64,000 nt of DNA from an uncultured Carboxylicivirga sp. (GTDB lineage: Bacteria; Bacteroidota; Bacteroidia; Bacteroidales; Marinilabiliaceae). The stretch spans positions 1 to 64,000 of the forward strand of contig CANLLN010000016.1 of assembly GCA_947491945.1 (NCBI GenBank), given 5' to 3'. Shown in pieces: positions 3 to 60,147 of this stretch. A model generated the notes under the pieces. It saw nothing but the letters and a program-made list of their open reading frames with translations, searched no databases and was not told where the DNA came from. The position numbers were made by a program, and so were the translations under genes. Position 1 is the first letter of the stretch, and every line of letters begins with the position of its first letter.

Positions 3-101
3 CTCTCAAAGATCGTGTTTCCTGATAATCAGGAATCTTTATTAAATTGTACCCTTGATGGACATTCAGGGCACACAGCAGCGCCCAACAAACCGCCATA
101 G
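3..101 (+). CDS. Possible C-terminal tail of a gene that starts before the window
   Basis: An open frame enters from the left edge and runs to a TAG at 99-101. The translated tail ends in PNKPP and its last residues are read from the attC-like element that starts at 83. The lone cassette at 45 kb shows the same thing: its hepT also ends in an amber codon inside the element. That makes this a plausible end of a preceding cassette gene. Only 32 codons are visible, so no family can be assigned and chance openness cannot be excluded. Confidence 0.3.
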   Translation, partial: LSKIVFPDNQESLLNCTLDGHSGHTAAPNKPP

Positions 102-281
102 CGCATAAGGCGATTAGTGAGGTTTCGGAGGCTTGCCGCTTCGGTCAGCTCCGCCAAATCGTTGATTTGGCTCTCCAAAATGAAAAGTTAAACCCAAATA
201 CAACGCTTTGGCTTCCCTCCTTTGTGGAAGGTTGGTGAGGTCAACATTCGCATTACGTCGCCATGCGGCAGGCCGTTGGGC
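83..281 (+). repeat. attC-like palindromic element, type A copy 1
   Basis: The element opens with GCCCAAC (83-89) and closes with GTTGGGC (275-281), exact complements that fit the attC consensus RYYYAAC ... GTTRRRY. The arms pair imperfectly further in (CCGCCATAGCGC against GCCGCATGGCG). The interior contains a perfect small hairpin, GCCAAATC-gtt-GATTTGGC. It is long for an attC (199 bp). Copy 2 at 7803 is almost identical over its first 75 bases, and a divergent copy lies at 44849-45028 on the minus strand. Confidence 0.65.
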
Positions 282-329
282 GTAAATTCATAAACCTAAC
301 AATGAACTTTGATTTTTACAGAGATAAAC

Positions 330-360
330 TTGACTAAATTACCAAGAATTGGTAACTTTG
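330..360 (+). promoter_or_regulatory. Promoter with overlapping palindromic operator for parDE
   Basis: TTG at 330-332, a 20-nt spacer and TAACTTTG at 353-360 match the Bacteroidota promoter form TTG-N19..21-TAnnTTTG. Between and over the -7 box lies the inverted repeat TTACCAA-gaa-TTGGTAA (339-355). An operator there would let the ribbon-helix-helix antitoxin repress its own transcription. The promoter lies after the element core (ends 281), so it belongs to the cassette itself. Confidence 0.75.
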
Positions 361-378
361 ATGTAAAATTAATTTGAA

Positions 379-621
379 ATGGGAAAAAATACGTCAATAT
401 CATTAGGATCGCATTTCGAGGAGTTTATAAATTACTCAATTGCATCAGGAAAATATAGTTCTGCAAGTGAAGTTGTACGTTCAGCATTAAGATTATTGGA
501 ATCTGAGGAAAAAAGACTTAATGAATTAAGAAACGCATTAATTGAAGGAGAAAACAGTGGGATAGTTGAAAATTTTAATCCAGAAAAACACCTAGAAGAA
601 TTACATCGGAAATACCTATGA
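379..621 (+). CDS. parD: ParD-like type II antitoxin (ribbon-helix-helix)
   Basis: An 80-residue protein with the ParD/CC2985 layout. A beta strand (TSISLGSHFEEFI) is followed by helices with the GKYSSASEVVRSALRLLE motif seen in ribbon-helix-helix antitoxins; the acidic C-terminal half (about residues 45-80) would wrap the toxin. The family binds its own promoter DNA and neutralises ParE. The start at 379 lies 19 bases after the promoter -7 box. The stop overlaps the toxin start by four bases (ATGA at 618-621), which means translational coupling. The probable operator at 339-355 suggests autoregulation. Family assignment is from recognisable motifs; function is not tested. Confidence 0.88.
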   Translation: MGKNTSISLGSHFEEFINYSIASGKYSSASEVVRSALRLLESEEKRLNELRNALIEGENSGIVENFNPEKHLEELHRKYL

Positions 622-920
622 ATAAAAGATATCGAATAAGTGAAAAAGCAATTTTGGATTTGGAGAAGATATGGTTTTACACTTTAAATAAATGGTCGAA
701 AGAACAAGCCGATAGATATCATAAATTAATCATTGAAGAAATTGATTTTATTTCAACCCACTTCGATTTATGTAGAAGCATGGATCATGTTCGCACAGGA
801 TATCGAATGTCAAAGGTTAAATCTCACTTAATTTTTTGCAAAAAGATGAAAGATGATGTAATTGAAATTATTAGAATTTTACATCAAAGTATGGATATTG
901 AAAATCGACTGAAAGATTAA
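618..920 (+). CDS. parE: ParE/RelE-superfamily toxin
   Basis: A 100-residue basic protein of the usual ParE size. It starts with the strand-helix pattern YRISEKAILDLEKIWFYT, has the central helix KWSKEQADRYHKLI, and ends with the HLIFCKKMKDDVIEIIRILH strand region typical of the family. ParE proteins poison DNA gyrase; RelE-type members cut mRNA, and sequence alone does not decide which applies here. It overlaps the antitoxin by four bases in the canonical antitoxin-first order. The gene looks intact. The attC-like element begins eight bases after the stop codon, as in compact integron cassettes. Confidence 0.88.
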   Translation: MNKRYRISEKAILDLEKIWFYTLNKWSKEQADRYHKLIIEEIDFISTHFDLCRSMDHVRTGYRMSKVKSHLIFCKKMKDDVIEIIRILHQSMDIENRLKD

Positions 921-927
921 AATCTAC

Positions 928-1063
928 GCCCAACAAGCCATCATAAAGTAGCCCTTGCTTTGGCTGGATTTGGGAGTTTTGCTCCCGCGCGAGCTGGGGC
1001 TAAAACAAGAAAGCGAAATTACCACACGCACCAGTGCCACTTCATATGGCCGAACCGTTGGGT
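928..1063 (+). repeat. attC-like palindromic element, type B copy 1
   Basis: GCCCAAC (928-934) and GTTGGGT (1057-1063) bound a 136-bp imperfect palindrome and fit RYYYAAC ... GTTRRRY. The length lies inside the usual attC range. Arm sequences such as CATCATAAAGTAGCCC face GCCACTTCATATGG near the other end. An internal hairpin surrounds GGGAG-tttt-GCTCCC. Copy 2 (1870-2006) is clearly homologous throughout. Confidence 0.68.
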
Positions 1064-1080
1064 GTAAAAAAACAAACCCA

Positions 1081-1863
1081 ATGATTCGAATATTAGGTCT
1101 ACTCTTATTACTTTTTGTCCAAACAGGAATTTATGGACAAATGAAGCGTGGTGAATATCCTTTTCGTATTAATGAGAATTCTGTATTTAATGGAACTAAA
1201 TTAATTGTTGATACTAGTTCTAAACCTCAGAATTTTAAATCAACAATGGAAAGCTGGTGCATGTCTCGCATTGGTATAGAAATCACTAAGTATGGGAAAA
1301 GGGCTATTCTTGAAGATTCCATGACTCTGAAAATTCATTTGCCATCTAATAATGAAGAAATTGTTTGGAATGTACAACGTATGAAAACTATTCATGAAGA
1401 AACTAATTCAAGAGCTTTTATTGCAGGGTTTTCCAATAATACTAAAGACACAATATCTTTTCCAATTCAAGATGAAAGTTTAATCGCAATTATAGAAGCA
1501 AAGGATAAAAATGGCAATTGGAGTCCAGTTCAATTCTGGCCCAAAAGTGGTTGTGGAAACAGTTATTATTCCAAATATCTTTTTCCAGATAACACATTGT
1601 TATTTACAGTTGATAATAATTTTGGAAATCAAAAAACAAATATGAGATTGCGGCTTCATGGTAATGACACAATATATGTTTCAAATGAATTTGAGGGCAC
1701 AGTGGATGAATCCATTTTTGATAGATCTCAAATTAGTATTGAAGAATTCAATCATATACTTTGTGATTCTATACTTTATCTGGATAAACCACTATTCGGA
1801 GACCTCAATTGTGAATTAGAAGTTGAAATGGATATTGAATTTGAAGAGATTATTCAAAAATAA
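1081..1863 (+). CDS. Unknown secreted protein (cassette gene)
   Basis: I do not recognise this 260-residue protein. The ATG at 1081 is chosen because it is followed at once by a signal peptide (IRILGLLLLLFVQTGIYGQ); the frame is open further upstream, but that part would be read through the attC-like element. The mature part is soluble-looking, rich in Asn, Ser and acidic residues, with a few cysteines (one at about residue 59 and others in the C-terminal half) and no obvious repeats, lipobox or T9SS C-terminal signal. It probably resides in the periplasm. No promoter of the TAnnTTTG type is visible directly upstream, so it may depend on read-through from the parDE unit. Confidence 0.65.
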   Translation: MIRILGLLLLLFVQTGIYGQMKRGEYPFRINENSVFNGTKLIVDTSSKPQNFKSTMESWCMSRIGIEITKYGKRAILEDSMTLKIHLPSNNEEIVWNVQRMKTIHEETNSRAFIAGFSNNTKDTISFPIQDESLIAIIEAKDKNGNWSPVQFWPKSGCGNSYYSKYLFPDNTLLFTVDNNFGNQKTNMRLRLHGNDTIYVSNEFEGTVDESIFDRSQISIEEFNHILCDSILYLDKPLFGDLNCELEVEMDIEFEEIIQK

Positions 1864-1869
1864 AACAAT

Positions 1870-2006
1870 GCCTAACAAGCCATCATAAAGTAGCCCTTGC
1901 TTTGGCGGGATTTGGGAGTTCAGCTCCCGTGTGAACTACAGAATAAACAAGAAAGCGAATATACCATACGCAAACCAGGCCACTTCATATGACCGAACCG
2001 TTGCCA
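1870..2006 (+). repeat. attC-like palindromic element, type B copy 2
   Basis: GCCTAAC (1870-1876) fits the inverse core RYYYAAC. The right end reads GTTGCCA (2000-2006), which keeps GTT but departs from RRRY. The body is homologous to 928-1063: AAGCCATCATAAAGTAGCCC, GGGAGtt..GCTCCC and CCACTTCATATG are shared. It begins seven bases after the preceding stop codon. Confidence 0.65.
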
Positions 2007-2105
2007 GTAATGCATAATTCAAAAGCTAGAACTTTGAGAAAAAGATTCCTATTAGTAAAATTCGATAATAATATCATCACACATAATTAATTATCAATTA
2101 AAAAA

Positions 2106-5100
2106 ATGAAATACAGCGAATTTACCAAATCAATTATATTCAACACCTTATTAACAATTGCTTTGATGTTGAATACTCAAATTAATATTATAGCAGAGGA
2201 GCATTACGTTTGGGGTAAGGATATATTTCCAAATTTTAGTGATGGTGATATTACTGTTTCGGATAAAGCTTGGAAAGCTATATATAATACTGACCTTGCT
2301 TCCAACTTAAAAACAAAAACATTAAAAGGTAAGACATCAAATAAAATTCATTTTGGAGGAGATATAATTAAAAATACAAAATGGGATGCAGATACCATTT
2401 CTGTCACTTCAGCTATCAAAATCCATGATAATGTTTTACTCGAAATATCTCCTGGGACCGTTATTGAATTCCAAGGGAATTATACAATTTATGTTGAGGG
2501 AACAATATCTGCCATTGGAAATACGAAGGACTCGATTAAGTTTTGTGGCAACAGCGCAAATACAACATGGGCAGGTATTAAGTTTATCAACGATTGGTCT
2601 GGTGCGAATGGAGCAATGGACAATAATGATTCCACCAAATTTGTAAATTGCATCTTCACCGGAGTTAGAAATTTCAATGAAATTGGAGGAGCCATATATA
2701 TGCGTTCTTACTCAAAAGTTCTCATTAAGGGTTGTAGAATTACAAATAATGTATCGGGGTATGGAGCAATTACCTGTCGTTTTAATGCAAACCCAGTAAT
2801 CGACGGCAATTACATCGGTTATAACCAAGCAAATCAACATGGAGGAGGTATCTGGTGCGATGACTCCAGCCCTACCATTATAAATAATAAAATTATTAAG
2901 AATGGACATATCGACATTCCTCAATTAGGAGGAGGAATAGCTCTTGAAAATTCAAATGCTTATATCGCTAATAATATAATAGCCTATAACCTTGCCCACT
3001 CCACAGGAGGTGGTATTTCTTGTTATTATTCGTCTAATCCCAAAATTATTAACAACACCATATGTTATAACAGTGCTAAAGATAAATACAATAGTTGGTG
3101 GCCCGGATATGGTAGTGGAATAGCTTGCGATGAAAATTCAAAACCCGAAATTATAAATACAATATTGTGGGGTAATACTAATAGAGATGGAAATGAACAA
3201 TTGAGGTTATCTTCATCCAACGGTTTTCCTTTAATCCAAAATTGTGTCATACAAGATGGCCTTGATAGTATTTTAGGGTTGAATTTTGCAGATCTTATCG
3301 AACTTAAGAAGGTTAGTAAGAATAATCTTAAACAAGCACCTGATTTTACAAATGGCCCTTTACTCGATTTTACTCTAAGAGCTCACTCTCCGTGCATTGA
3401 TCAAGGTATTGAAGATACTTCAGGATTGAATTTACCTCGATTGGATTACTTAAATAACCCCCGAATTGCAAATGAAGCGATCGACATAGGTGCAATAGAA
3501 TACCAGGGGATACCGGCAAATAAACAGCCGGTAATAGAAAGGCATGATGCTGTTAGTGGTTTAATGAATGCTTCAATACAAATGAATGTGATCTTTAATG
3601 ACCTGGATATTGATGATACACATACTATTGATGTTGTTTCAGACAACTCCAATTTGCAAATTCAAAGTATAAGTGGGCATACTTCATTTTCAACCTATGA
3701 TATTGTTCCTGCAGATAATTGGCTTGGAACTGCCAATATAACTGTTACAGTAACTGATAATAGTGGCGAAAGCAATGCTACTGATTCATATGTCTATCCA
3801 TTAACAATAATGGAAACAGCATGTGGAGATATTTTTGGCAATACGGTTTGGAATAACGATACGGTGAAAGTTACATGCGATATAACAGTTAAAGAAAATG
3901 CAACTCTTAGCATAAAACCCGGGACCGTAATCCAATTTCAGGATTACTATAAATTGAATGTGTTTGGTAAGCTTTTAGCCAAAGGCGAAATAAATGATAC
4001 CATTCAATTTACGGTTAAAGACACGACTAACTTTTCACAGTATCACAGGCATACAGGATGGCATGGAATTCGATTTTACAATAATATAAAAGATACATCC
4101 ATAGTTCAATATGCCAGGTTTGAATATGGAAAAGCATTAGATGATGAAAACAATCAAGCTGATAACAAGAATGGAGGGGCTATTTTCATAAGTGATTATA
4201 CCAGTGTTAATATCTCTAATTGTATGTTTTATAGAAATTATGCAGCTCAGGATGGTTCTGTAATATATTCCCACAATAGTTCTCCTATAATTTCCAACTG
4301 TATATTTAATCAAAATCATGGACGAACATCAACGATTGTAGCGGATAGAAAAGCAAAGATTCTTGATAACTTAATTTCATATAACTCTAACAATGAGGGT
4401 TATGGTATTATTTGCTCCGATTCAACACTAATAATTGGTAATCGAATTCTAAATAATAAAAGTGGAGGAGTAAGGTGCTTTGACAGCCCTGCCATTTTAA
4501 ACACCATCATTTGTAATAATTCGAGTGTTGGTTTATCCTTTTATGATTGTCACACTAAAAGAATCAGCAACATTATTGTTTATAATAATGGTTCGTACCA
4601 GGGTGGCAGTGCACTTAGCATGTGGACTTCCTACATAGATGTATATAATTCGATTATTAATGGATATATTGATACCGGATGGGGATATCCTACCTTTTAT
4701 AATTGTTTTTTAGATGTTACCGGTGATTTTAGGAAGGGGAATAATGATGCAGGTTGCATATATGCCTTGCCAGGTTTTGTTGCACCAAGCGAAGGTATGG
4801 GTGTTGAATTTGATGCTGTAGGAGCAGATTGGTCTTTACTCCTTACGTCCTATGGGATTAACACTGGTATAGAGGCAGGTATTCAAGACTTTGATAAGGA
4901 TATTGCTGGAAATCCAAGAGTTTATGGAGATTACATTGACATTGGCCCGTATGAATATCAAGCAAGTCCTCAAAACCGTCAGCCTTTGATAGAGGGAATT
5001 GATGATAAAGAAATAGTTAACTTTTCTTCAATGGAACTGGCTGTTCATTATTGGGATCCGGATAAGACTGATAATCACTCCATCACTGTAACTTCCAGTA

Positions 5101-7223
5101 GTCCTCATGTTGAAATTTCGGAATTAAGCGGAGACACCATTGGTTCTACCGTTAATGTAGTTTCAATAGATGATTGGGAGGGTACAGCTCAAATTACCAT
5201 AAAGGTAAATGATAATTCCGGAAGTGAAAACTCAATAGCCAGCGAAACAGTCAACATTATAGTTTCTAAAGATATTTGTGGTCATATATCCAATAATTCA
5301 ATATGGAAAGGAGATATTGTAAAAATATCATGTCCAGTTATAATTGATGATGAAGTATGTCTTAAAATAATGCCAGGGACACACATAGAGTTTAGCAACG
5401 ATGCATATATTGAAGTTATTGGTACCCTTTTAGCCGAAGGGACTAAAAGTGATAGTATTGTCTTTTCTACAATAAATAACGATTCAGGTTGGAAAGGAAT
5501 TAATTTTAAGAATGGTTTTCATGCATATAGTCATCCATCAGGTATAATGAATGATAATGATACCAGCAAGTTTATCTATTGCAAATTTGAATATTGCAAT
5601 ACCAGAACATTTTTTATTGATGAATACGATAAATTAGTGATTTCGAATTCACGATTTGCTAACAACCAGGGACAATGTATCCAGACATATGAGGCAAGCC
5701 CTATGATAAAAAATAATGTATTTGAATATAATACATGCAGCAATTACGAGTCCGGAACCATTTGGTGTGAACGTTACTCCAACCCAATAATTATTGGAAA
5801 TATTATTCGAAATAATACCGGAATATTAGGTGGTGGTATTAATTGCGACTATTATTCAAACCCATTAATTACTAACAATTTAATATATAACAACAACGCT
5901 ACATCAGGAGGAGGTATATATTGTACACAATCATCACCGAAAATAATTAACAATACAATAGTAAATAATAAGGCAACAAACGGAGCAGGTATATATTGCA
6001 GGTACTCATCTCCATATTTGTACAATTCAATTTTATGGGGCAATGAAGCCACAAACGATACTTATCAGGTTTATAATCATAGAGATGCCCGCAATATTTC
6101 AAATTGCATTATACCTGAGAGCGGACTTCATTTTACGGATGATAATTATGAGACAGGCCTGATTATTTCCAGCTCGCCAAATTTTATGAATGAGACTGAA
6201 GATGATTATAATCTGGCAGCCAACTCTGTTTGTATAAATACAGGTTCAAATGAATATGTTGAAATGAATTCTATTAGCCTGGATATATTTGGCAATAACA
6301 GAATCAATGATAACATAGTAGATGTGGGAGCATTTGAATTCCAGGGAGAACCAGAAGAGATGGCTCCGGTTTACTTAGATTTATCTAATAATTATGTCAA
6401 CGAGAACAGGCCAATTAGAACCATGGTTGGAATATTGACAACACTGGACCCTAATTATAGCGACATTCATAGTTATTCATTTGCAAACGGTGACGGGACA
6501 AACGATGAGGGCAACTATGGTTTCGAGATAGTTGGAGACACTCTGTTTACAAAACAGGAATTTGATTATGAAAGTAAAGCAAGCTATCCTGTATTAATTT
6601 CATCTATAGATAATACCGGGAAAAGTATTACAGAGTGTTTTATTGTATTAATACGCGACACAAGCGAACCTCCTGTGCTTATGAATCCTATACCCGATGT
6701 TACTAGTAATGCAGAGGAGGAGTTTTATTTTCAAATTCCCGATAGTACTTTCTATCAGGATGACAAGAGCTACTATAGATATACAGCCAAACTAACTGAA
6801 TCAAATTCGTTACCGTCATGGATAAACTTTGATCAATACAGTGGCGTTTTTGCAAGCAGTAATCCGGTTGTTGGAACATATAACATTGAAGTTATTATTA
6901 GCGATTGGTACTATACAAGTGTTCCTGATACATTCAAAATTACAACTATCAATAGTGATGTCTCAATAAACGAAAGCTCAGATTCAAAACCAATCAGCAT
7001 ATATCCCAATCCATCTAGCAATTATTTTAATGTAATTAATATTCCGAATGAGGTAACAAAATATCAAATCACTGATATTTACGGGAGCGTTATATTGGTG
7101 CAAAAAACAATTAACAACAATGGGGCTTTACAAATTGATTTGTCACAATATCCTGATGGATTGTATCTACTCAGATTAATTGGAAATTCTGCAGATGAAA
7201 CTTATAAACTGATAAAGAGGTGA
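2106..7223 (+). CDS. Giant secreted beta-helix protein with T9SS C-terminal sorting domain
   Basis: A 1705-residue protein. Residues 1 to about 31 form a signal peptide. Three homologous modules follow (about 86-470, 568-950 and 1055-1415). Each opens with a segment around an EISPGT or SIKPGT or KIMPGT motif and continues into right-handed parallel beta-helix repeats rich in GGGI.C and NN.I..N patterns. Modules 1 and 2 end in an Ig/cadherin-like domain starting near KQPVIE or RQPLIE. A cadherin-like domain (about 1416-1520) and a putative-Ig domain (about 1523-1625) come next. The last 75 residues (SIYPNPSS ... DLSQYPDGLYLLRL ... YKLIKR) are a type A T9SS sorting signal, so export to the cell surface or medium is expected. 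Beta-helix folds often bind or cut polysaccharide; no catalytic residues are recognised. The gene lies between two attC-like elements and is strongly AT-rich. Confidence 0.85.
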   Translation: MKYSEFTKSIIFNTLLTIALMLNTQINIIAEEHYVWGKDIFPNFSDGDITVSDKAWKAIYNTDLASNLKTKTLKGKTSNKIHFGGDIIKNTKWDADTISVTSAIKIHDNVLLEISPGTVIEFQGNYTIYVEGTISAIGNTKDSIKFCGNSANTTWAGIKFINDWSGANGAMDNNDSTKFVNCIFTGVRNFNEIGGAIYMRSYSKVLIKGCRITNNVSGYGAITCRFNANPVIDGNYIGYNQANQHGGGIWCDDSSPTIINNKIIKNGHIDIPQLGGGIALENSNAYIANNIIAYNLAHSTGGGISCYYSSNPKIINNTICYNSAKDKYNSWWPGYGSGIACDENSKPEIINTILWGNTNRDGNEQLRLSSSNGFPLIQNCVIQDGLDSILGLNFADLIELKKVSKNNLKQAPDFTNGPLLDFTLRAHSPCIDQGIEDTSGLNLPRLDYLNNPRIANEAIDIGAIEYQGIPANKQPVIERHDAVSGLMNASIQMNVIFNDLDIDDTHTIDVVSDNSNLQIQSISGHTSFSTYDIVPADNWLGTANITVTVTDNSGESNATDSYVYPLTIMETACGDIFGNTVWNNDTVKVTCDITVKENATLSIKPGTVIQFQDYYKLNVFGKLLAKGEINDTIQFTVKDTTNFSQYHRHTGWHGIRFYNNIKDTSIVQYARFEYGKALDDENNQADNKNGGAIFISDYTSVNISNCMFYRNYAAQDGSVIYSHNSSPIISNCIFNQNHGRTSTIVADRKAKILDNLISYNSNNEGYGIICSDSTLIIGNRILNNKSGGVRCFDSPAILNTIICNNSSVGLSFYDCHTKRISNIIVYNNGSYQGGSALSMWTSYIDVYNSIINGYIDTGWGYPTFYNCFLDVTGDFRKGNNDAGCIYALPGFVAPSEGMGVEFDAVGADWSLLLTSYGINTGIEAGIQDFDKDIAGNPRVYGDYIDIGPYEYQASPQNRQPLIEGIDDKEIVNFSSMELAVHYWDPDKTDNHSITVTSSSPHVEISELSGDTIGSTVNVVSIDDWEGTAQITIKVNDNSGSENSIASETVNIIVSKDICGHISNNSIWKGDIVKISCPVIIDDEVCLKIMPGTHIEFSNDAYIEVIGTLLAEGTKSDSIVFSTINNDSGWKGINFKNGFHAYSHPSGIMNDNDTSKFIYCKFEYCNTRTFFIDEYDKLVISNSRFANNQGQCIQTYEASPMIKNNVFEYNTCSNYESGTIWCERYSNPIIIGNIIRNNTGILGGGINCDYYSNPLITNNLIYNNNATSGGGIYCTQSSPKIINNTIVNNKATNGAGIYCRYSSPYLYNSILWGNEATNDTYQVYNHRDARNISNCIIPESGLHFTDDNYETGLIISSSPNFMNETEDDYNLAANSVCINTGSNEYVEMNSISLDIFGNNRINDNIVDVGAFEFQGEPEEMAPVYLDLSNNYVNENRPIRTMVGILTTLDPNYSDIHSYSFANGDGTNDEGNYGFEIVGDTLFTKQEFDYESKASYPVLISSIDNTGKSITECFIVLIRDTSEPPVLMNPIPDVTSNAEEEFYFQIPDSTFYQDDKSYYRYTAKLTESNSLPSWINFDQYSGVFASSNPVVGTYNIEVIISDWYYTSVPDTFKITTINSDVSINESSDSKPISIYPNPSSNYFNVINIPNEVTKYQITDIYGSVILVQKTINNNGALQIDLSQYPDGLYLLRLIGNSADETYKLIKR

Positions 7224-7233
7224 AAGCACATAC

Positions 7234-7363
7234 TGGCAACACTGTATATACAAAATAGGCGTGATAGTATTAAATTTCGGGATTGTAGTCCGCCTCAAAA
7301 TCGTAGCCGTTTGACAGGTTCGAAGTCCGCTATCGCCTACTTTGCATATACTAATCGTTGGCA
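7234..7363 (+). repeat. attC-like palindromic element, type C
   Basis: TGGCAAC (7234-7240) and GTTGGCA (7357-7363) bound a 130-bp imperfect palindrome. The arms match well with a few extra bases: GTATATACAAAATAGGCG on the left corresponds to the complement of CGCCTACTTTGCATATAC on the right. Extrahelical bases of this kind are a feature of folded attC sites. The heptamers deviate from the strict consensus. The element starts 11 bases after the stop of the giant secreted protein gene. Confidence 0.6.
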
Positions 7364-7802
7364 GTAATAGTAACTATCTGCCTTAACGAACACGAACTCG
7401 AACGGAGCGCTTCGATTATGAAAAACAAAAACGGGACGCAAAACCGTAAAATCGGGAAAAGTGGTTTAAGGTAAAGGCATTTTAAAACCAAGGCGCGCAT
7501 TTTCGGACTCGCAAATAAAACGTAGCAGGACTTGCAAACCAAACGGACACGGCGGACTTATCCCGGCCGGCACATTTTCAGCCAGGCAGCCGGACTTCCG
7601 ATTTGTAGCGGGACTTTCAAGCAACTGTTTACGGACTCACGTTTTTTTTTGTTTAGGTGTAGCCAGACTTCAAAATAACACATACGGACTAGAGCGCGCC
7701 AAAACCTAGAATACAAAGCTGTTTAGACGGAAAAAGCTGAATAACACAAAGATTTTCAGCCCGTTTTTGAAGTGAATCTTAGAAGAAATTATAAACCGCA
7801 GC
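7364..7802. other. Cassette-like segment without a convincing gene; repeated GGACT motif
   Basis: About 440 bases between two attC-like elements hold no open frame that looks coding. The longest (minus strand, 63 codons) is low-complexity and overlaps the element end. The stretch carries GGACT at 7505, 7528, 7554, 7592, 7611, 7633 and 7686, with near matches at 7545 (GGACA) and 7665 (AGACT), often as CGGACTT. The spacing is irregular (roughly 10-40 bases). No promoter or terminator is evident. Non-coding cassettes are known in integrons; a degraded gene is the other explanation. Confidence 0.45.
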
Positions 7803-7950
7803 GCCCAACAAACCGCCATAGCGCATAAGGCGATTAGTGAGGTTTCGGAGGCTTGTCGCTTCGCCCGGCAGCGCCAAATCGTTGATTTGGCTTCCCTCCT
7901 TTTTCAAGGTTTGTGAGGTCAATGCCCGTTACGCACCATGTGGCCGACCG
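7803..7950 (+). repeat. attC-like palindromic element, type A copy 2, lacking the right core
   Basis: The first 75 bases repeat copy 1 at 83 with almost no change, including GCCCAAC (7803-7809) and the GCCAAATC-gtt-GATTTGGC hairpin. The right arm (CACCATGTGGCCGACCG) pairs with the left, but the expected GTTGGGC is absent: the sequence runs CCG followed by TGATATCC. The break comes directly after the G, at the position where integron integrase cuts G/TT. This would be the right edge of the array. Confidence 0.6.
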
Positions 7951-8126: not shown

Positions 8127-8585
8127 CTAAAGCACCTCCAAATGCTCTTCATTGGTTATCTTTTCGCAATACTGACACTTCAAAGCTAAAGGAGATTTTT
8201 CTACCAACGAGAATTTGGTAAGCATGGTCTCGTTATTCGTTATGCACTTGGGATTGAAACACTTGACAATACCCACAATCTGTTCAGGCAAGGTAACCAC
8301 CTTCTTATCCACCACCTGATAATCCTCAATAATATTTAGCTTGGCCGATGGTGCCACCAAGGCAATTTTATTAATATCTTCATCGGCAAAATATTTTTTA
8401 GCCACTTTTATAATGGCCTTATGCCCTTGCTGCTTACTTTTCAGGTTAGTACCAAAGGTAATCTGATCTGTTATTTTATCGAGTCCTAAAATAGAAATCA
8501 CCTTGAATAAGTGCGTGGCGGGTATATGATCAATAACAGTACCATTCTTAATGGCTCTTACGCTTAATTCTTTCTTTGTCATCAT
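8127..8585 (-). CDS. pyrI: Aspartate carbamoyltransferase regulatory subunit
   Basis: A 152-residue PyrI, the normal length. The N-terminal allosteric domain (about 1-95) contains NGTVIDHIPA, the nucleotide effector region. The C-terminal zinc domain shows the four-cysteine pattern KCFNPKC ... KCQYCEK that holds the contact to the catalytic chain. It binds CTP/ATP and tunes PyrB in the cytoplasm. It lies 17 bases downstream of pyrB and is almost certainly translated from the same message. Start: ATG at 8585, possibly the next ATG one codon later. Confidence 0.96.
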   Translation of the reverse strand: MMTKKELSVRAIKNGTVIDHIPATHLFKVISILGLDKITDQITFGTNLKSKQQGHKAIIKVAKKYFADEDINKIALVAPSAKLNIIEDYQVVDKKVVTLPEQIVGIVKCFNPKCITNNETMLTKFSLVEKSPLALKCQYCEKITNEEHLEVL

Positions 8586-32955: not shown

Positions 32956-32972
32956 GTACCAGGTAATAAGTG

Positions 32973-33022
32973 TTAGGGAACGGTTCTCTAGCGTAAGATG
33001 CTTATAAAGAACCGTTCCCTAA
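32973..33022. repeat. Dispersed hairpin element, 15-20-15 geometry, copy 1
   Basis: TTAGGGAACGGTTCT (32973-32987) and AGAACCGTTCCCTAA (33008-33022) are exact complements around a 20-nt loop ending in GATGCTTATAA. The loop as well as the arms are shared with the element at 60012-60061, so this is a repeated element, not merely a hairpin. It lies between convergent gene ends. Confidence 0.65.
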
Positions 33023-33057
33023 ATGATGAATTAAAATGTAACTTTCAGAATTTACTA

Positions 33058-44848: not shown

Positions 44849-45028
44849 GGCATGGCGCTGTAAGGCGATTGATCCTTACTAACCTTCCAAATATAGCGGA
44901 GCCAAAGCGTTGTATTTGTTTATAGCATTTCATTTTTAAAGCCAAATCAATGATTTGGCTGGCTGACCGAGGCTGCAAGCCTCCGGAACCGCGCTGATCG
45001 CCCAAGGACACTATGCGGTTTGTTGGCA
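44849..45028 (-). repeat. attC-like palindromic element, type A copy 3 (reverse)
   Basis: Read on the minus strand it begins TGCCAACAAACCGCATAG (45028 downward) and shares GGAGGCTTGC, a CCAAATCA-ttg hairpin and TACAACGCTTTGGCT with copy 1 at 83-281. The distal arm (CGCCATGCC) pairs with the first, but the right core is missing and native-looking sequence starts near 44848. The hepT reading frame ends inside the element. Confidence 0.6.
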
Positions 45029-59772: not shown

Positions 59773-60011
59773 TCGAATACAGTTTAATTGCTACTAAAAC
59801 ACGATCGGTAATGCACCGAAGCATCGGTCAACGACCATTAGCCGGGCACAATACAGTCATGTTCTTTTTCATTTTTTTAGTCAGTATAAAATTGAAAAAA
59901 AAACAGCAAGGACTAAACGGCTATTTGTTCAAGAAAGGTAAGGAGTGTTCAGCAGGAGATCATGAGAACATTCAGGATGTTCTTTGGAAGGTTAAAGGCG
60001 TTCAATAAGTT

Positions 60012-60061
60012 TTAAGGAACGATTCACTAATATATGATGCTTATAAAGAATCATTCCGTAT
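60012..60061. repeat. Dispersed hairpin element, 15-20-15 geometry, copy 2
   Basis: TTAAGGAACGATTCA (60012-60026) faces AGAATCATTCCGTAT (60047-60061) across a 20-nt loop ending GATGCTTATAA, as in copy 1 at 32973. The arms are worn (a few mismatches) and T-rich sequence follows. The rest of 59773-60147 shows no gene I can support. Confidence 0.6.
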
Positions 60062-60147
60062 TTTTTTTATTAAAATGGAACTTACTACTGTCCATGTATA
60101 AGGAAGCCTTCCATGTCCCCCCGGTGGAAACGAATACTTTGATGTGA

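Follow-up and report, generated by a model that had tools for sequence, protein, structure and literature searches.

The window analysed here, i.e., the whole stretch of 64,000 nucleotides, covers the initial 64 kb of the 111,444-bp contig C16 in the genome (4.9 Mb in 216 contigs) of an uncultured Carboxylicivirga sp. An array of cassettes and attC elements occupies its left end, and the features of this array and its surroundings are as follows (window positions and strand).

80-284, plus strand: attC of type A, about 190 nt, with R'' AAC at 87-89 and R' GTT at 275-277; it closes a cassette that begins off the contig
275-1056, plus strand: cassette of 782 bp with a ParD antitoxin gene (379-621) and a ParE toxin gene (618-920); its tag GTTGGGCGTA pairs with TACGCCCAAC
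925-1066, plus strand: attC of type B, 128 nt
1057-1999, plus strand: cassette of about 943 bp encoding a 260-aa protein (1081-1863); its two ends pair only via G:T wobbles
1867-2009, plus strand: attC of type B that adjoins the focus cassette on the left; its R' (2000-2009) serves as the start tag of that cassette
2000-7356, plus strand: focus cassette of 5,357 bp; its start tag GTTGCCAGTA (2000-2009) pairs with TACTGGCAAC (7231-7240)
2106-7223, plus strand: gene for a 1,705-aa protein; residues 1632-1705 form a C-terminal T9SS sorting domain of type A, and the rest includes a hydrophobic N-terminus as well as Ig-like domains and right-handed beta-helix regions
7231-7366, plus strand: attC of type C belonging to the focus cassette, hairpin of 122 nt, arm score 15.5
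7357-7950, plus strand: last cassette, ORF-less; positions 7392-7892 represent one copy of an ORF-less cassette family that recurs in the genome, at about 82-90% identity
7801-7954, plus strand: shortened terminal attC of type A, in which GTG replaces the GTT of R'; end of the array
8127-8585, minus strand: chromosomal flank, a 152-aa gene with homologues in 13 of 13 congeners
44850-45025, minus strand: solitary decayed attC of type A lacking the R' GTT, outside the array and 37 kb away

The leftmost attC is up to 91% identical to many attCs of the same genome. No Pfam match was obtained for the 260-aa protein, and an Rfam search of the region returned nothing of note. We take the 152-aa gene to be pyrI from its place beside a pyrB-like ORF, no family search having been made. 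The ORF-less cassette family, about 615 bp long and with the tag GTTGGGCGC, occurs in at least 10 copies of roughly 82-93% identity, often in tandem (window 7392-7892; loci L063, L064, L067, and L072), and its members might conceivably serve as promoters or spacers.

Searches of Pfam and NCBIfam with the 1,705-aa protein identify Beta_helix (E 2e-30), Por_Secre_tail PF18962 (E 1.6e-10), and TIGR04183 (E 1e-10), and all domain matches exceed the curated cut-offs where such cut-offs are given. A hydrophobic stretch extends over approximately residues 9-30, with no signal-peptide prediction behind it, and SprA of the T9SS is encoded by the host on contig C35 (2,600 bits). We infer that this is a surface protein and T9SS cargo, its export and expression being untested. 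With T9SS type A beta-helix cargo (choice-of-anchor Q) it has in common the TIGR04183/PF18962 sorting domain, Beta_helix, and the Ig-like domains, whereas it is distinguished by a gene that forms the body of an integron cassette. The GC content of the gene is 34.4%, compared with 43.8% for window positions 8127-64000, and is in line with that of other cassettes. No match to the protein was found at E 1e-40 in 13 congeners and 46 further relatives, nor at E 1e-60 in 294 other genomes of the order; low GC content and absence from the 13 congeners are taken as support for a foreign origin of the gene. A second cassette with a T9SS sorting domain (1,555 bp, locus L241) exists in another member of the Bacteroidota and, therefore, such cargo recurs.

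Each element of the array is laid out as a hairpin opening with N7-AAC (R'') and closing with GTT-N7 (R'). The 10 bases from GTT onwards already form part of the cassette that follows, whose own attC has an R'' complementary to them. When hairpins were picked without this tag rule, 19 of the 23 adjacent pairs in the genome matched at 9-10 of the 10 positions, compared with a proportion of about 15% when pairs were shuffled. The focus neighbourhood is itself among the four exceptions, since the weak element at 1867-2009 fell under the threshold there; the pair matches at 10 of 10 once this element is included. In the last cassette of the array, the tag mismatches its own R''. A set of 198 cassettes of the same integron type was chosen with the tag rule and describes the members of the rule; it is no test of it, which is provided by the 23-pair comparison. 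Cassettes of this set have a median length of about 0.8-0.9 kb, an A directly follows the tag in nearly all of them (194/198), and the bottom strand gives the more stable fold in 177 of the 198 attCs (p 6e-32). For own attCs, the median z is -4.9 against simple shuffles. Known integrons likewise show a bottom-strand bias in attC folding. The classical GTTRRRY fits only 19 of 136 distinct tags, so that the consensus criterion for the R' core is unmet, and the core of the focus cassette, GTTGCCA, does not fit either.

Exact-unit movement is seen for other cassettes and not for the focus cassette. A cassette of 1,286 bp is 100% identical in two genera (L154:14429-15715, minus strand, and L158:12516-13802, minus strand), and a cassette of 1,008 bp is present in two identical copies in one Aquimarina genome, one of them at attI, the left flanks being an attC and attI, respectively. 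Both identical stretches begin and end at GTT and have unrelated flanks; exact-ended movement of these cassettes is shown by the sequences. On the array strand of the 1,286-bp cassette, ORFs are short, reaching at most 49 aa. An alternative reading is that ordinary dispersed palindromic repeats flank genes by chance and that no cassettes are exchanged. In its favor, the elements are repeated, form hairpins, and in some cases are solitary. However, the cassette-specific pairing of 10-nt ends, the occurrence of identical, exact-ended cassettes in unrelated contexts, and the strand bias of folding all but rule it out, and we retain the interpretation of the elements as attCs.

In the focus cassette, the left-hand attC-like element has its R' GTT at 2000, the cassette's own attC has R'' at 7231-7240 (AAC at 7238-7240), and the GTT of the next R' is situated at 7357. 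Start tag and R'' match at 10 of 10 positions; GTTGCCAGTA occurs once in the 64-kb window (at 2000), as does its reverse complement TACTGGCAAC (at 7231). Cassette ends and attC hairpins are established by the sequence. The ORF starts 106 nt after the start of the tag and its stop codon lies 7 bases before the 10-base R'', the cassette being nearly all ORF. The preliminary description had placed a 1,705-codon beta-helix T9SS gene between a type B and a type C element, 11 bases before the latter. This placement holds, as ORF 2106-7223 has attC-like elements on both sides, and the 11-base gap is correct for the boundary noted at the time (7234), the actual R'' beginning closer to the stop codon. 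The element types A, B, and C distinguished there correspond to attC hairpins whose lengths are about 190, 128-136, and 122 nt, respectively.

The focus cassette is the second longest among the 198 cassettes, and its ORF is by far the longest single gene. Large multigene cassettes, of 4.2 and 6.5 kb, exist in other Bacteroidota, and the longest cassette of the set (6,475 bp) contains a multigene operon with methylase-like genes. Isolated tag matches over 6-9 kb (L194, 5,910 bp; L149, 6,903 bp) were judged to be due to chance, since they pass over attCs in between or match at only 9 of 10 positions without belonging to a chain. One might suspect that a 5-kb gene entered a smaller existing cassette by another route, e.g., transposition, resulting in a composite unit, and the fact that the focus cassette is 2.6 times as long as the next largest cassette of the same genome is compatible with this view. 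Against it, the ORF fills the cassette from just behind the tag to just before R'', neither a transposase nor an internal attC was found within the cassette, and another T9SS-cargo cassette as well as other large cassettes exist. We regard a composite origin as very improbable and treat the focus cassette as a single unit.

A tyrosine recombinase is encoded near the end of contig C10 (C10:135651-137021). About 270 bp beyond it, a GTT site resembling attI is followed by three tag-paired cassettes, after which the contig breaks. Behind pyrI, the congeners carry a DoxX-like gene, a flavin reductase gene, or both. In the source genome, the flavin reductase gene is located at 119 kb on C10, i.e., on the same contig as the integrase, and pyrI is located on C16 beside the tail of the array; therefore, the right end of C10 and the left end of C16 bracket one ancestral site. 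A tag-and-hairpin scan found no credible attC at the congener pyrI in 11 assemblies with enough sequence; two of the 13 congeners (G011 and G013) were left out, their contigs ending within about 900 bp of pyrI. Two isolated scan hits at the congener pyrI (L141 and L144) had GTTT tags, were unchained, and were judged to be due to chance. The attCs on C10 and C16 are 91% identical. The window array is most likely the distal end of the integron starting on C10, an inference, as the assembly does not join the two contigs. Alternatively, the array could be a CALIN without an integrase of its own, moved to or stranded near pyrI, in which case the focus unit would still be a true cassette but not be served by the C10 integron. 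This possibility gains some support from the missing join and from further attCs, some of them on C14 near an unrelated integrase of the conjugative type and others standing alone elsewhere. It is rendered unlikely by the adjacency in congeners of the genes now found on C10 and C16, such that the contig ends bracket one site, and by the identity between the attCs of both contigs. The recombinase near attC arrays on C14, the one such enzyme examined there, is of the conjugative-element type and was rejected as an integron integrase.

We read the focus unit as a true cassette because of its cognate ends, the flanking attC hairpins, the GC contrast, its absence in congeners, and the attC-free neighbourhood of pyrI in congeners. 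Very probably, window positions 2000-7356 are a single integron cassette of 5,357 bp with one predicted T9SS-exported beta-helix protein, penultimate in a chromosomal integron whose integrase and attI are on C10, although it is by inference that C10 and C16 are joined, that the integrase acts on this cassette, and that the protein is expressed and exported by the T9SS. The same evidence upholds the earlier proposal of a cassette position of about 5.4 kb. That its size and cargo would be exceptional is borne out only in part, given the other large cassettes and the second T9SS cargo, and a link between cassette exchange and cell-surface variation is inference only, as no strain pair with and without the focus cassette is available. 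Conservation of the gene in relatives with the same neighbours and without elements, which would have refuted the proposal, was searched for and not found. Fused flanking elements had been suggested as a further check; without a credible attC at pyrI in the 11 readable congener assemblies, there is no fusion to compare. No strain lacking the focus cassette or carrying a duplicate of it was found, and it is possible that excision of a 5.4-kb cassette is rare.

In the C10 integrase, PF00589 is found, and the catalytic residues R, K, H, R, H, and Y are invariant in 44 homologues; numbered as in the Carboxylicivirga locus L170, the catalytic tyrosine is Y436. No IntI above the TIGR02249 cut-off is encoded in the genome, the C10 recombinase scoring below it, and the best NCBIfam match of this enzyme is the XerA model NF040815 (237.8 bits). 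About 43 residues of the IntI-specific region are missing (query residues 362-380 versus 184-245 of IntI4, PDB 2a3v), and the spacing is 65 aa in every measurable homologue versus 107 aa in IntI1. As the IntI-specific domain is regarded as needed for integron recombination (PMC9668308), this counts against the C10 enzyme as an integron integrase. Among the top PDB matches, 2a3v provides the best structural cover (TMt 0.59-0.69). The N-terminus of the integrase (L023:5651-6190) comprises about 180 aa in Carboxylicivirga and about 100 aa in Flavobacteria; it seems to hold an alpha-beta module, which perhaps is duplicated in Carboxylicivirga. A gene for a 123-aa protein with four conserved, zinc-finger-like cysteines divergently adjoins the integrase gene (e.g., L023:5137-5508, minus strand; A1/A4 homologues). 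For this protein there is no Pfam family and no match in a structure search, and it could be a regulator or a recombination partner.

Searching GTDB genomes for this zinc-finger family yields 374 relatives, of which the best 80 loci were examined. The integrase gene is divergently adjacent to the zinc-finger gene in 76 of them, and of the 44 loci whose downstream sequence is long enough, 33 have tag-linked cassettes. The integrase orthologues of Carboxylicivirga congeners are likewise followed by tag-paired cassettes. Across 27 loci inspected, the first tag lies 40-130 nt past the integrase stop codon (about 260-270 nt in Carboxylicivirga), and in many of them an inverted repeat precedes it. 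The linkage of integrase, attI, and attCs in relatives is a direct observation. Several other integrases sit at contig ends, as assemblies are expected to break in repeats. The cargo is typical of integrons and includes restriction and defence proteins, ParDE, GmrSD, a CBASS-type synthetase domain, and lipoprotein-like as well as unknown proteins. On a plasmid of Rufibacter tibetensis (L249), a relative of the integrase (32% identical) is followed by several small genes in one direction, and tag-linked attCs were not detected near it.

A 48-sequence tree groups the Bacteroidota enzymes in a single clade, sister to IntI1 plus IntI4 (98-99% support), with XerA, XerC, and XerD outside; the outgroups are few and some branches are long. 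A further rival explanation holds that a host Xer or another enzyme recombines the elements instead of the C10 recombinase. The genome does have XerC/XerD-like genes of its own, and the C10 enzyme matches XerA best and stays below the IntI cut-off. Nevertheless, the tight linkage of integrase, attI, and array in dozens of genomes and the position of C10-type enzymes beside IntI1/IntI4 and apart from Xer make this very unlikely. With the C10 integrase as the preferred candidate, the enzyme, lacking the IntI-specific domain, would most likely act at GTT on attC hairpins folded from the bottom strand. If the attCs on the two sides of the gene, with R' at 2000 and at 7357, were recombined with each other, a single fused attC would remain and a 5.36-kb circle would be released, which could re-insert at attI.

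With sedentary chromosomal integrons of Vibrio, Xanthomonas, and others, the Bacteroidota system shares a tyrosine recombinase beside an attI-like site, cassettes that share one orientation and mostly carry a single gene, attCs that fold as imperfect hairpins with a bias towards the bottom strand, GTT as the point of exchange, and repeated ORF-less cassettes. It differs by an integrase that has no IntI-specific domain and is extended at its N-terminus, by a variable 10-nt GTTRNNNNNN tag plus a conserved A instead of GTTRRRY, by a conserved zinc-finger gene next to the integrase gene, and by attCs of up to about 206 nt. Catalytic residues, structural cover, and sister position connect the enzyme with IntI1 and VchIntIA/IntI4, from which the missing residues of the IntI-specific region separate it. 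With XerA/XerC/XerD it shares the fold, and with XerA its best model match, whereas its ties to cassette arrays and to a divergent zinc-finger gene set it apart, and the genome's own Xer proteins branch elsewhere. Criteria for integrons that are met comprise tandem genes between attCs with complementary R''/R', imperfect hairpins favored on the bottom strand, attI beside the integrase, and exact-unit movement, the latter for other cassettes. Structurally, the array behaves as an integron, with recombination inferred and untested. We name it a novel integron variant and not an IntI integron as defined, because its integrase fails the defining IntI test and its ends fail GTTRRRY.

Integrons have been reported to be nearly absent from Bacteroidetes, and in the account of IntegronFinder 2.0 one complete integron is named, that of Salinibacter ruber (PMC9024848). 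The usual searches demand the IntI-specific domain (PMC9668308), and the limit for attC clustering of 4 kb is twice the largest annotated cassette (PMC8352920). Therefore, a C10-type integrase would not be called IntI and the focus cassette would be split off the array. A bolder reading, which we consider likely, is that Bacteroidota possess their own widespread integron lineage with a dedicated zinc-finger partner, which exchanges cassettes between genera, moves entire surface proteins as well as operons of several genes, up to about 6 kb in size, and has been overlooked since it has no IntI-specific domain and its ends misfit GTTRRRY. No description of such integrons was found in the open-access literature searched, which covered no preprints and few subscription papers. 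If this reading is correct, Bacteroidota of marine habitats and sediments have a large system for gene exchange that has been overlooked and can carry full-length surface proteins and defence operons, and the need for the IntI-specific domain in integron recombination becomes directly testable. Elsewhere in the window, an 80-nt repeat with 78% identity occurs at 32965-33044 and 60004-60083, 27 kb apart, and is unrelated to the array as far as seen.
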